Origin: Nitrospiraceae bacterium
GTDB taxonomy: Bacteria > Nitrospirota > Thermodesulfovibrionia > UBA6902
Length of the DNA stretch: 34,970 nucleotides
NCBI GenBank assembly: GCA_003599505.1
Contig: QZKO01000087.1
Coordinates: forward strand, 1-34,970
Direction of reading: 5' to 3'
A program made the position numbers and the translations under genes. How positions within the stretch are numbered: position 1 is the first letter of the stretch; each line of letters begins with the position of its first letter. Positions 13,964 to 21,957 of the stretch are shown one piece after another. Below the pieces are notes generated by a model. The model worked only from the letters and a program-made list of their open reading frames with translations. It ran no database searches and was not told the DNA's origin.

Positions 13964-14398
13964 ATGATGGAAGAAACCGGCATAGTCACAAAAACAGAAG
14001 GCATTATGGCAAAAGTAGCCGTGCAGAAACGGGGCACATGTGAAGGGTGCGGCGCCAGAGGAGTCTGTGAAACGACTGAAGGAGGAATGGAGATAGACGC
14101 CCTGAACCCTGTCCAGGCAAAAGTCGGCCAGACAGTGAAGGTTTCAATCAAACCTTCAACATATCTGAAAGGCACCATGCTGGTGTACGGAATCCCTCTC
14201 ACAGCCCTGATTGCCGGCGCGATAATCGGCAAGAATATCGGCGAAACATATATGAAAGAGACGGGCTCGGACCTGATTGCCGCCATAGCAGGGTTCGGCG
14301 CACTTATAATCTCGTTCTTTGGAATAAAGATATGGACGCGCAAGGCTGAGACAAAGACAGAATACAAACCGGTTATCGAGGAGATAATAAAAGAATAA
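13964..14398 (+). CDS. rseC: RseC/MucC-family membrane protein
   Basis: This 144-residue protein has the RseC layout. A short cytoplasmic N-terminal domain carries a Cys cluster (KRGTCEGCGARGVCE, Cys at about residues 25, 28 and 33). Next comes a beta segment DALNPVQAKVGQTVKVSIKP. Two transmembrane helices are at about 66-86 (MLVYGIPLTALIAGAIIG) and 98-117 (LIAAIAGFGALIISFFGI). In E. coli RseC works with the Rsx complex, a homologue of Rnf, in reducing SoxR; here a complete Rnf operon lies 10 kb downstream, so a role as an Rnf accessory or iron-sulfur factor is plausible. Two adjacent ATGs (13964, 13967) are possible starts; neither has a clear ribosome site. Confidence 0.85.
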   Translation: MMEETGIVTKTEGIMAKVAVQKRGTCEGCGARGVCETTEGGMEIDALNPVQAKVGQTVKVSIKPSTYLKGTMLVYGIPLTALIAGAIIGKNIGETYMKETGSDLIAAIAGFGALIISFFGIKIWTRKAETKTEYKPVIEEIIKE

Positions 14399-14475
14399 GG
14401 GGTCAAGGGGTCAAGGGGTCAGGGGGTCAAGAGAAAAAAGACTTGTACCCCCGGCCCCTCGGCCCCTTGAACCCT
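14399..14475 (+). repeat. G-run minisatellite, hairpin or G-quadruplex
   Basis: Starting at the base after the rseC stop, four G-runs (14399-14402, 14407-14410, 14415-14418, 14422-14426) are separated by TCAA, TCAA and TCA. This is a canonical four-tetrad G-quadruplex motif on the coding strand. About 20 nt later the C-rich stretch 14447-14475 can pair back with it, with CAAG/CTTG closing the loop, so an imperfect long hairpin is the competing fold. It may act as a terminator or as an mRNA element before the GTPase gene, whose ribosome site GGGAGGA follows. Confidence 0.7.
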
Positions 14476-17613: not shown

Positions 17614-20600
17614 ATGACGCCTATACATAGATTTATTGGCCTTGACGCGGGTTCGGTAAGCGTGAAACTTGCGGTTCTGGATGCCCGGGGGAATATTCTT
17701 GACACAAAATATGTGAGGCATAAGGGAAACCCTCTGCCTGTAGCGTATGAGCTGTTAAAGAGTGTAACGCGTGTAGGGGCGTTTCATGAAACGCCCCTAC
17801 TATCCATTACCGGTTCCGCCGGTAAAATCATCGCCGAAGCACTGGGCATTAAGCCCGTAAATGAAGTCGTCGCTCTCAGTTATTCCACGAAAAAACTGTA
17901 TCCTGCGGTAAAGACCGTCATTGAAATGGGCGGTGAAGATTCAAAGCTCCTACTTCTTGAAAACGGAGCTATCAGGGAATTCTCCATGAACTCTGTATGC
18001 GCTGCAGGGACGGGTTCCTTCATAGACCAGCAGGCGGAAAGACTTTATCTCAGCATCGAGGAATTCAGCGAACTCTCTCTCAAATCGCAGCACCCCCCTC
18101 GTATAGCCGGCAGGTGCAGTGTCTTCGCAAAATCGGACATGATCCACCTGCAGCAGATAGCGACACCCCTTGAAGACATCGTCGCGGGACTCTGTTTCGC
18201 GGTTGCGAGAAATTTCAAGGGCAGTATCTGTAAAAACATGGAGCTTCCTGCCCCCGTCAGTTTTCAGGGCGGCGTAGCAGCAAACAAAGGCGTTGTCAGG
18301 GCGTTCAGAGAAGTGCTGCCGGCAGACGATATTATAATCCCCGATCACTTTGCGATAATGAACGCGATAGGAGCTGCACTGAAAGATATGGAGGAGGGAC
18401 TTGAAAATTCTTTTGATATCGAAAAGCTGAAGCTGTTTATGGAGTCGCTGAAAGAAGAGGATACAGGGCATAAGCCTCTCAGGGAAGGCAAGGGGCAAGG
18501 GGCAAGAGGCAAAGGGCAAGAGACAGCGGTTAGCGATGTAGGGGCGGGTTTGAAATTCGCCTCTGATATTAACGCATACATGGGCATCGACATCGGCTCG
18601 ATAAGCACCAACCTTGCCGTAATCGATGAAGAGGGCAGACTGCTTGCAAAAAGATATCTCATGACCGCCGGCAGGCCGATCGAGGCCGTCAAAAAAGGTC
18701 TTGAAGAAATAGGCTGCGAGCTTGGCGACAGGGTAGCTGTCCGCGGTGTAGGCACCACAGGCTCCGGCAGGTACATGATAGCGGATTTTGTCGGCGCGGA
18801 TATCGTCAAAAACGAGATAACGGCCCAGGCCAGGGCCGCTGTGGAAATTGACCCGGAAGTAGACACCATTTTTGAAATAGGCGGGCAGGATTCAAAATAT
18901 ATCTCTTTAAGAGACGGCATTATAATTGATTTTGAAATGAACAAAGCCTGCGCCGCAGGCACCGGGTCTTTTATTGAAGAGCAGGCCGAGAAACTCGGTA
19001 TTTCGGTGAAAAATGAATTTGCCGAGATCGCGTTCAATTCGCAAAAACCCTGCACCCTCGGCGAAAGGTGCACGGTTTTCATGGAGAATTCCCTCCTGTC
19101 GAAACAGCAGAGGGGAGGGACAAAAGAAGACCTTACCGCGGGACTTGCTTATTCAATAGTCCAGAACTACATAAACCGCGTTGTAGGCGACAGGGCAATG
19201 GGCAGCAAGATATTTTTTCAGGGAGGGGTGGCGTTTAATAAATCTGTTGTAGCTGCATTTGAAAACTTTCTTGGAAGAGAAATTATAGTCCCTCCGCATC
19301 ATGATGTCACGGGCGCGATAGGCATGGCGATAATCGTGAAGAAGCATATGGAGGGTCAGCGGACAGCGGTTAGCGTTCAGCAGTCAGCCGTAGGGGCAAT
19401 TCATGAATTGCCCCCTACAACATTCAAGGGCTTCGATCTTTCCAAAAGAAGCTACGAGATAAAATCCTTTCCTTGCAAGGGTTGCGACAATTTGTGCGAG
19501 ATAAACAGGGTCCAGGTTGAAGGGGAGAAGGAGCCGCTATACTACGGCAGCAGATGCGAGAAATATGACGTTAAACGGAAGAAAAATAATATTTCCAAAG
19601 ACATGCCCGATCTGTTCGCCGAGCGTGAAGAGCTTTTAACAAAGACGCACAATGAATATGAGGCAAGGGGCAAGGGGCAAGAGGCGAGGGGCAAAAGAAT
19701 CGGCATACCCCGCATTTTCTTCTTTCACGATTTCCTGCCGTTCTGGAGCGCGCTCCTGTGGGAGCTTGGATTTGAGGTAGAGCTCTCGGCAGGCACCAAC
19801 AGGCAGATAATAAACAAGGGCGTTGAGAATATCCTCGCTGAAAGCTGCTTTCCCCACAAGGTCGCTCACGGGCACATCAGGGACCTGCTGGACAAAAAAG
19901 TTGACGCTGTATTCCTGCCGAGCTTTATAAATTTCAACCCGGACGGTGAATCGACACGGAGTTTTGCCTGTCCGTATGCGCAGACCATGCCGTACATAGC
20001 GGGGATAGCCTTCGGGGGTATCCGCCTCCTTAAGCCGGTGATAAACTTCGAGCGGGGAAGGTCATATCTGGTAGATGAAATATACCGCTCGCTGAAACCG
20101 TTCCATATAACTAAACGGGCAATAAAGAAAGCGATGGAGAAGGCGGATGAGGCGCAGCGGGAGTTTGTCTCGGCAATAAAGACGCGGGGCCGCGGGCTTC
20201 TTGACGGGATAACTGAAAAGACGCTTATTATCGCGGGCCGTTCATACAACGCCTCGGATTCCGGCATTAATCTCGAAATACCGAAGAAACTTGCCGCGCT
20301 GGGGGTGTTTTCCATTCCCATGGATTATCTGCCTCTGGAAAGCGTCGACATATCCGCTAAATGGGCGAATATGTACTGGAGGTCAGGGCAGAACATTCTG
20401 AGGGCGGCTGAGATAATAAGGGACAACCCGAAGCTGTTCGCGCTCTATATAGGAAATTTCTCCTGCGGCCCGGATTCCTTTATCCAGCATTTCTTTGATG
20501 AAACCATGCAGGGCAAACCATACCTTCATATCGAGATCGACGAACACAGCGCGGACGCCGGAGTTATAACAAGGTGTGAGGCCTTTCTTGACAGCATAGA

Positions 20601-21957
20601 ACAACAGGAGAGAAGCAATGAAGGCATTAAGGGATTAAGGGAAGAAGCGGCCGCAATCCCCCGCTCTGTTTTGCCGTCGTTGAGCCGCGCTCCTTTACAC
20701 AATAAAAAGGTTGTTTACATCCCGCGCATGTCGGACCATACCTACGGGATAGCCGCCGCGTTTGAAGCCTGCGGCATGGACGCCGAGGTTATGGACGTGC
20801 CTGATATTGAGACCGTAAAGATCGGAAGGCGTTACGTCTCCGGGAAGGAATGCTATCCCTGCGCCATTACAACCGGAGACATGGTGAAAAGGGCCATGTC
20901 GGAAGATTTCGACCCTGACAGGGCGGTGTTTTTTATGCCGTCGGGGGCCGGACCGTGCCGTTTCGGGCAATATAATATTTTCCACAGGCTGGTGCTCGAT
21001 GAGATCGGTTTTAAAAAGGTCCCGATACTTTCACCCAATCAGGACGAATCGTTTTACAGCGCCCTCGGCATGATCGGAAAGGATTTCACAAAGCACGCAT
21101 GGAGAGGGATTGTCGCAATCGAGCTGCTGATGAAGTGCCTTCATGAGACGCGGCCTTATGAGGCCGGCAAAGGTGAGACAGACGCCCTGTATCAGGAATA
21201 TCTTAAAAAGATAAGGAAGGCGTTAAAAAGCGGCAACGGAGATATCCCGGAACTTTTTCGCTCTATAAAAAAATCTTTTTCAGAGGTAAAGAAGACCGGG
21301 GCGAAGAAACCCCTCATAGGGGTCATCGGAGAAATATTCGTCCGGCACAATGTCTTTGCCAATGAAAATTTAATAAGGAAAGTTGAGGAAATGGGTGGAG
21401 AGGTGTGGCTTGCGCCTGTCGAAGAATGGCTCTATTACGTGAATCTGATGGCGCTCAGGAAATCACTGGTCCGGCTCCGCACCGATTTGTTTACCCAAGG
21501 GCTGGCAGAGGACCTTTTAAGGACTGTCCTTACAAGGCATGTCCAGAAAAAAATAGAGCATAAGTATTCAAAGCCTTTCCATGGGTTCCTGAAGACACTG
21601 AAAGAACCTTCAACTACGGAAATATTGAAGAACGCGTCTCCATATCTACATGATTCATTTGAAGGGGAAGCCGTGCTGAGCATGGGCAAGGCAGTGGATT
21701 TTGTGAAACACGGCGCTTCCGGCATCATAAGCGCTATGCCTTTCGGGTGCATGCCGGGCACTATCGTAAGCGCCTTGATGAAAGGACTCAAGAGAGACAC
21801 CGGCATCCCGTGCCTCAGCGTCGCTTATGACGGCGTGGAAACAACGTGTTCCGGGATACAGCTTGAGGCCTTCATGCACCAGGCTGGGGAATACAACGAC
21901 AGGGGCAAGGGGCAGGGGGCAAGGGGCAAAGGGAAGTCAGACGCCGGACTTCTATAA
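17614..21957 (+). CDS. Giant acyl-CoA dehydratase activase (BcrA/BadF + DUF2229)
   Basis: The 1447-residue protein is the fused form of the 2-hydroxyglutaryl-CoA dehydratase activase family. Two ASKHA ATPase modules occur. The first starts at residue 7 (FIGLDAGSVSVKLAVLD) with MGGEDSKLL, VCAAGTGSFIDQQAERL and GRCSVFAKSDM. The second starts at about 323 (MGIDIGSISTNLAVID) with IGGQDSKYI, CAAGTGSFIEEQAEKLG and GERCTVFMENS. Each half has the two Cys that would hold the bridging [4Fe-4S] cluster. A CKGCDNLCEINRV cysteine segment follows, then the DUF2229 region (RIFFFHDFLPFWSALLWELG, about 702) and a C-terminal part with FMPSGAGPCRFGQYN. It may hydrolyse ATP to drive low-potential electrons to a dehydratase-like partner, but no dehydratase gene is present. 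Its coding sequence contains six repeat insertions, listed separately, all in frame. Confidence 0.88.
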   Translation: MTPIHRFIGLDAGSVSVKLAVLDARGNILDTKYVRHKGNPLPVAYELLKSVTRVGAFHETPLLSITGSAGKIIAEALGIKPVNEVVALSYSTKKLYPAVKTVIEMGGEDSKLLLLENGAIREFSMNSVCAAGTGSFIDQQAERLYLSIEEFSELSLKSQHPPRIAGRCSVFAKSDMIHLQQIATPLEDIVAGLCFAVARNFKGSICKNMELPAPVSFQGGVAANKGVVRAFREVLPADDIIIPDHFAIMNAIGAALKDMEEGLENSFDIEKLKLFMESLKEEDTGHKPLREGKGQGARGKGQETAVSDVGAGLKFASDINAYMGIDIGSISTNLAVIDEEGRLLAKRYLMTAGRPIEAVKKGLEEIGCELGDRVAVRGVGTTGSGRYMIADFVGADIVKNEITAQARAAVEIDPEVDTIFEIGGQDSKYISLRDGIIIDFEMNKACAAGTGSFIEEQAEKLGISVKNEFAEIAFNSQKPCTLGERCTVFMENSLLSKQQRGGTKEDLTAGLAYSIVQNYINRVVGDRAMGSKIFFQGGVAFNKSVVAAFENFLGREIIVPPHHDVTGAIGMAIIVKKHMEGQRTAVSVQQSAVGAIHELPPTTFKGFDLSKRSYEIKSFPCKGCDNLCEINRVQVEGEKEPLYYGSRCEKYDVKRKKNNISKDMPDLFAEREELLTKTHNEYEARGKGQEARGKRIGIPRIFFFHDFLPFWSALLWELGFEVELSAGTNRQIINKGVENILAESCFPHKVAHGHIRDLLDKKVDAVFLPSFINFNPDGESTRSFACPYAQTMPYIAGIAFGGIRLLKPVINFERGRSYLVDEIYRSLKPFHITKRAIKKAMEKADEAQREFVSAIKTRGRGLLDGITEKTLIIAGRSYNASDSGINLEIPKKLAALGVFSIPMDYLPLESVDISAKWANMYWRSGQNILRAAEIIRDNPKLFALYIGNFSCGPDSFIQHFFDETMQGKPYLHIEIDEHSADAGVITRCEAFLDSIEQQERSNEGIKGLREEAAAIPRSVLPSLSRAPLHNKKVVYIPRMSDHTYGIAAAFEACGMDAEVMDVPDIETVKIGRRYVSGKECYPCAITTGDMVKRAMSEDFDPDRAVFFMPSGAGPCRFGQYNIFHRLVLDEIGFKKVPILSPNQDESFYSALGMIGKDFTKHAWRGIVAIELLMKCLHETRPYEAGKGETDALYQEYLKKIRKALKSGNGDIPELFRSIKKSFSEVKKTGAKKPLIGVIGEIFVRHNVFANENLIRKVEEMGGEVWLAPVEEWLYYVNLMALRKSLVRLRTDLFTQGLAEDLLRTVLTRHVQKKIEHKYSKPFHGFLKTLKEPSTTEILKNASPYLHDSFEGEAVLSMGKAVDFVKHGASGIISAMPFGCMPGTIVSALMKGLKRDTGIPCLSVAYDGVETTCSGIQLEAFMHQAGEYNDRGKGQGARGKGKSDAGLL
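17773..17800. repeat. Perfect 28-bp palindrome inside the activase gene
   Basis: GTAGGGGCGTTTCA (17773-17786) is followed at once by its exact reverse complement TGAAACGCCCCTAC. It encodes residues 54-62 (VGAFHETPL) in frame and lies in a surface-type position before LLSITGSAGK. It belongs with the similar elements at 18538 and 19390. Confidence 0.9.
18485..18522 (+). repeat. GGGGCAA 7-bp minisatellite, copy 1 in the activase
   Basis: About five units of the type GGGGCAA (with GGCAAGA and AAGGGCA variants) encode GKGQGARGKGQE, residues about 292-303. The unit length of 7 is not a multiple of 3, yet every frame reads the same heptapeptide (G-A-R-G-K-G-Q) and has no stop. It falls in the linker between the two ATPase modules. 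Confidence 0.9.
18538..18566. repeat. Degenerate GTAGGGGC palindrome in the activase
   Basis: GTAGGGGCGGGTTTG and AAATTCGCCTCTG form an imperfect palindrome that still pairs as RNA if G-U pairs are allowed. It encodes VGAGLKFAS in frame and directly follows the word GACAGCGGTTAGCG, which recurs before the element at 19390. Confidence 0.65.
19390..19418. repeat. GTAGGGGC palindrome with one extra base in the activase
   Basis: The left arm GTAGGGGCAATTCA (19390-19403) meets TGAATTGCCCCCTAC (19404-19418), a reverse complement apart from one extra C. It encodes AVGAIHELPPT in frame. The segment from 19362 (GACAGCGGTTAGCG and further TCAGC words) also looks inserted, placing about 25 foreign residues after the second ATPase module. 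Confidence 0.85.
19661..19696 (+). repeat. GGGGCAA 7-bp minisatellite, copy 2 in the activase
   Basis: About five units encode EARGKGQEARGKR (residues about 682-695), just before the DUF2229 region begins (IGIPRIFFFHDF). The frame is kept. Some units carry G-to-A or A-to-G changes, so this is an older or drifting copy. Confidence 0.88.
21901..21935 (+). repeat. GGGGCAA minisatellite, copy 3, G-quadruplex motif
   Basis: G-runs at 21902-21905, 21909-21912, 21915-21919, 21923-21926 and 21931-21933 have loops of 2-4 nt (CAA, CA, CAA, CAAA), a canonical G-quadruplex motif on the coding strand. It encodes RGKGQGARGKGK at the very C-terminus of the activase. Confidence 0.9.

Follow-up and report, generated by a model that had tools for sequence, protein, structure and literature searches.

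Short palindromic repeats read in frame at linker positions of conserved genes in a Nitrospiraceae bacterium

Palindromic repeats read in frame within protein genes were once seen as a peculiarity of Rickettsia, and later as intragenic repetitive extragenic palindromes (REPs) in a few bacteria. Rickettsia palindromic elements (RPEs) are found between genes and, in frame, within conserved metabolic genes, where they have been proposed to be compatible with the protein fold (PMC2229807, PMC10969869). Di Nocera et al. (2013) described intragenic REPs in Opitutus and other bacteria, including copies within genes for tRNA synthetases and repair proteins, and already suggested linkers and loops as sites at which REPs are tolerated (PMC3733652). 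Our study concerns a stretch of 34,970 nucleotides (the window) from a Nitrospiraceae bacterium of the class Thermodesulfovibrionia (contig QZKO01000087.1), in which palindromes lie inside the gene for a 2-hydroxyacyl-CoA dehydratase activase fusion. These palindromes belong to a family that, judging from sequence, adds in-frame loops of some ten amino acids to the products of at least 13 conserved genes.

The activase gene occupies positions 17614-21957 on the forward strand and encodes 1447 amino acids in a single open reading frame (ORF), with matches to the Pfam families BcrAD_BadFG (PF01869, E 2.9e-68) and DUF2229 (PF09989, E 7.4e-60). An initial annotation had claimed that it contains a perfect 28-bp palindrome, a sister element and a degenerate third copy, which add short peptides at linker positions without breaking the frame; all of this is borne out. 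The perfect palindrome, at 17773-17800 (GTAGGGGCGTTTCATGAAACGCCCCTAC), has the core GTTTCA/TGAAAC and reads VGAFHETPL (residues 54-62), in a loop between a helix (residues 40-52) and a strand (62-66); 1.3e-4 such palindromes are expected by chance in the window. The copy at 18538-18566 (GTAGGGGCGGGTTTGAAATTCGCCTCTGA) is a decayed 29-bp form beginning with GTAG and reading VGAGLKFAS, within the peptide DVGAGLKFAS at about residues 307-316, and a congener, G005, carries an intact 29-bp form, GTAGGGGCGGGTTTGAAACCCGCCCCTAC, at the orthologous place (locus L091). The sister element, at 19390-19418 (GTAGGGGCAATTCATGAATTGCCCCCTAC), has the commonest core of the family, AATTCA, with one C inserted, and reads VGAIHELPPT from about residue 593, in a coil between helices 563-590 and 607-611; its orthologues in G005 and G008 lack the extra C. 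None of the three is assigned a strand, and all are in frame.

The host genome, of which the window is contig 27, is a draft of 2.64 Mb in 87 contigs, and the family within it can be written as GTAGGGGC, a self-complementary core and GCCCCTAC, about 27-30 bp in all. Within two mismatches of GTAGGGGC-N12-GCCCCTAC there are 42 genomic places, compared with 2 for a reversed-pattern control, and the exact arms separated by 5-34 nucleotides match 28 times, compared with none for the control. The 8-bp arms are common to the family while the cores vary (AATTCA, GATTCA, GTTTCA, GAACGG, GTATTG, GGGTTT, GACCCG and others); across the genome each pair of core positions is complementary in at least 43 of the 46 copies, though at least two types of pair occur at each. 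In genome stretches fetched around the copies, about 55 could be classified: 20 are intergenic, 13 overlap ORF ends and 22 are inside ORFs. At least nine of the 13 at ORF ends provide the TAG stop codon of the host gene through GTAG. The intragenic load varies, with 2 of 23 copies inside large genes in a second genus (G016) and 14 of 55 in the genome studied here. Seven exact palindromes with the AATTCA core also occur on a 14.8-kb IMG/VR contig filed as viral (L257), which may be host DNA.

Among the 22 copies inside ORFs, 14 are internal to genes identified by Pfam, two are close to an end of a longer gene and six fall in short, doubtful ORFs; counting the activase copy at 19390, 15 copies are internal to 13 conserved genes. 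The hosts, whose names beyond the Pfam families are our interpretation of Pfam hits, are leuS, aspS, queA, prmC, a class-III aminotransferase, cbiG/H, cbiE/T, nagZ, a 4Fe-4S membrane protein, a P-type ATPase (two copies), an MMPL exporter, a UDPGP-family protein and the activase (two copies).

We compared these sites with orthologues in nine congeners, giving ten genomes of one genus in all. Every site in a conserved gene proved to be a variable linker, which in congeners may be empty, contain a palindrome whose core is the same or different, or carry other dispersed repeats in frame (for example NSELLTPNSKLS, SPVTRHSSL and NPPLIPPLFKGG). At the three activase sites, the added residues are missing from orthologues in the rest of the family and class, and the same variable pattern of linkers extends to orthologues across the class. 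In the AlphaFold2 model all three sites fall in coils that link secondary-structure elements, and pLDDT drops below 50 at residues 293-297 and 299-314; alignment of solved AspRS and LeuRS homologues opens gaps opposite or beside the inserts. Relative to empty congeners the net change in length is +18 at the MMPL site and +12 at the cbiG site, and relative to other genera it is +18 at the first activase site; since these changes are multiples of three but differ from site to site, the frame would most likely be kept by selection on the outcome and not by an exact insertion unit.

The activase linkers also hold repeats with a period of 7 nucleotides, which the initial annotation had overlooked and whose statistics come from a sample of stretches enriched for palindromes. 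All are in frame on the forward strand. At 18486-18537, (AGGGGCA)n followed by ACAGCGGTTAGCG reads GKGQGARGKGQETAVS and falls in a low-confidence coil of the structure model; at 19352-19389 the repeat is TCAGCGGACAGCGGTTAGCGTTCAGCAGTCAGCC, from our reading of the sequence and the congener alignment. Repeat analysis places further (AGGGGCA)n runs at 19661-19698, reading ARGKGQEARGK, and at the C-terminus, at 21896-21933, reading DRGKGQGARGKGK. A survey by regular expressions, which is descriptive only as the patterns were picked after the data were seen, found repeat peptides in 10-31 of 96 orthologues per activase linker, compared with 3.5% of control tiles. By these alignments the activase linkers are landing sites shared by several repeat families across the class.

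Some side observations concern repeats of this or other kinds. The leuS linker before YWMPVDQ (L163-L182, L248) is exactly 78 nucleotides long in eight of the nine congeners, in varied flavours of 7-nucleotide period (GTCAGCA-like, AACTCTT-like), as if rewritten at a fixed length. The third activase site of congener G004 (L118) holds a 59-bp composite that combines the same arms with inner hairpins, which reads VGAGLCARPESGQPQGIAPT and folds as a single long hairpin. A region of cobalamin-type genes (L138; G000 contig 26, 18000-35921) carries about 22 in-frame repeat runs in 18 kb, in nearly every ORF, and a repeat of period 8, (AGGGGTCA)n, covers the end of a short ORF and the sequence just past it at window positions 14390-14434.

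From this analysis we consider it likely that the palindromes are a small dispersed repeat family, mostly intergenic, that also invades coding sequence. Intragenic copies would survive where the element can be read through in frame and has landed in a surface linker able to accommodate additional residues, the added peptides being presumably neutral; inside genes, the arms would go on changing together despite the altered protein. More tentatively, in the Thermodesulfovibrionia a number of unrelated dispersed repeat families may keep rewriting the flexible linkers of conserved proteins in frame, with one palindrome arm copied from the other, such that DNA-level mutation, and not selection on the protein, dictates linkers genome-wide; we hold this broader proposal to be possible, though on balance doubtful. 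Three points weigh against an invading family. Truly empty sites in close relatives are lacking because the congeners are only about 80% identical in protein; transposition was not observed and no mover was identified; and in a bioA-like gene (L137, L160) both boundaries of the insertion are equal in G000 and G005 while the cores are entirely different, which suggests site-specific insertion or replacement of the core as a better explanation than random landing.

One candidate mover is a REP-associated tyrosine transposase (RAYT), which would make these palindromes ordinary GTAG-REPs. The arms do start with GTAG, GTAG-REPs are known inside genes (PMC3733652), the genome has four Y1_Tnp genes (300-322 amino acids), and copy number correlates weakly with Y1_Tnp count within the family (rho 0.42, p 0.01). 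Against this, GTAG is here fully paired with CTAC, leaving no unpaired tag; no palindrome borders any of the four Y1_Tnp loci; over 61 genomes the correlation falls to rho 0.22 (p 0.08); and copies and transposases are mismatched in G016 (69 copies, no Y1_Tnp) and G040 (17 Y1_Tnp, no copies). With no convincing link from either the loci or the correlation, we rejected RAYT as the mover and regard the explanation as unlikely. No target-site duplication was seen among 49 elements, of which five have matching flanks of 2 nucleotides (3 expected) and three of 3 nucleotides (0.8 expected); the first flanking base shows a weak preference for A. An exact insertion unit of 30 bp was also considered, and was not seen in the comparison of congeners. 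We infer that the element moves.

At the first activase site, each of three species has its own perfect palindrome at one place, with cores GTTTCA, GTTGCA and GTTTCG, those of G005 and G008 being orthologous to the 17773 copy; they differ by complementary pairs of nonsynonymous changes. At the cbiG site the outer arms also change symmetrically (GCAG/CTGC and GCCG/CGGC). Nine orthologous intragenic sites show 7 paired and 9 one-sided changes, where about 0.3 paired changes are expected under a random-placement null that takes no account of shared ancestry and does not discriminate between template switching, conversion from a sister copy, insertion on several occasions, and selection in favour of pairing. 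The arms therefore change together at orthologous intragenic sites, and palindromicity outlasts amino-acid change. This covariation might mean that palindromes are retained in genes for a hairpin function in DNA or RNA, such as transcript stability, pausing or a binding site; in keeping with that, intragenic copies are as symmetrical as intergenic ones (0.96 vs 0.94), and the RNA folds as a 12-bp stem with a 4-nucleotide loop, paired from the first base. Such a function is nevertheless improbable, given that presence varies among congeners, unrelated repeats occupy the same linkers, the activase has decayed copies, and template switching yields paired changes without selection. For the dispersed family we favour, the arm changes would arise most simply from template-switch (quasipalindrome) correction in replication, a process known to create and preserve such pairing (PMC8794818), or from copying of sister elements.

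That the peptide itself (VGAIHELPL and similar) is selected as a protein motif might be read from the codon phase, which is 0 in 15 of 15 conserved-gene copies. This uniformity arises largely because both other phases hold a stop for the common cores: all core types listed can be read through in phase 0, some of them in a second phase too, and none in the phase with TAG. In congener G003 the P-type ATPase has a GAACGG-core copy that uses the other open phase, and together with the unrelated host proteins, the nonsynonymous paired changes and the 20 intergenic copies this makes a selected motif very hard to sustain. Chance or an assembly artefact, which the draft state of the genome might suggest, is refuted by the chance expectation and reversed-pattern control given above and by orthologous copies in separately assembled genomes of other species.

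The presence of these palindromes in core genes such as those for tRNA synthetases, beside other in-frame repeats at the same linkers, extends the phenomenon to an uncultured and apparently free-living lineage. Gain, loss and arm correction can be compared directly across the ten genomes of the genus, a natural setting in which to test how proteins acquire new loops and whether mutation or selection preserves palindromes. When the literature was searched for the arm GTAGGGGC, the matches listed were chance ones in unrelated papers, and a search on palindromic intergenic repeats in Nitrospirota brought up no relevant work.

The parallel with Rickettsia drawn in the initial annotation is supported in kind, because this family too is short and palindromic, occurring between genes and also in frame within conserved ones (13 genes with 15 copies that orthologues lack), at variable linkers that in the activase are predicted to be coils. 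Neither outcome that would have counted against the annotation came about: orthologues in the wider family and class do not share the residues, and the genome does hold copies between genes. It does not extend to length or to the retention of symmetry: compared by description, RPEs are about 105-150 bp long against 27-30 bp here (28 bp at 17773), belong to another phylum, and are reported, as cited in PMC6649704, to lose repeat identity over time, whereas the arms here stay complementary. Nor is Rickettsia the sole precedent, given the intragenic REPs of other bacteria (PMC3733652). Our family resembles GTAG-REPs in its GTAG terminus, its size (20-40 bp in GTAG-REPs), its TAG stops from termini, its units within conserved genes and its many copies outside genes (55, with 20 intergenic and 13 at ORF ends; PMC3733652), and differs in lacking both the unpaired GTAG end that defines those elements, GTAG being paired here with the terminal CTAC, and an association with RAYT. 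Coding palindromes of nematomorph mitochondria likewise lie in protein genes with arms that seem to be actively maintained, and template switching has been proposed for them (PMC6649704), but they reach 284 bp, are mitochondrial and have no dispersed intergenic family. Miniature inverted-repeat transposable elements (MITEs) are also short dispersed inverted repeats able to form in-frame fusions (PMC10969869); the present family has no target-site duplication and is too short to be one. To these systems the present case adds a family that is symmetric and has no unpaired tag, its load in core genes of a Nitrospirota lineage, the sharing of linkers with other repeats, and the keeping of symmetry within genes.
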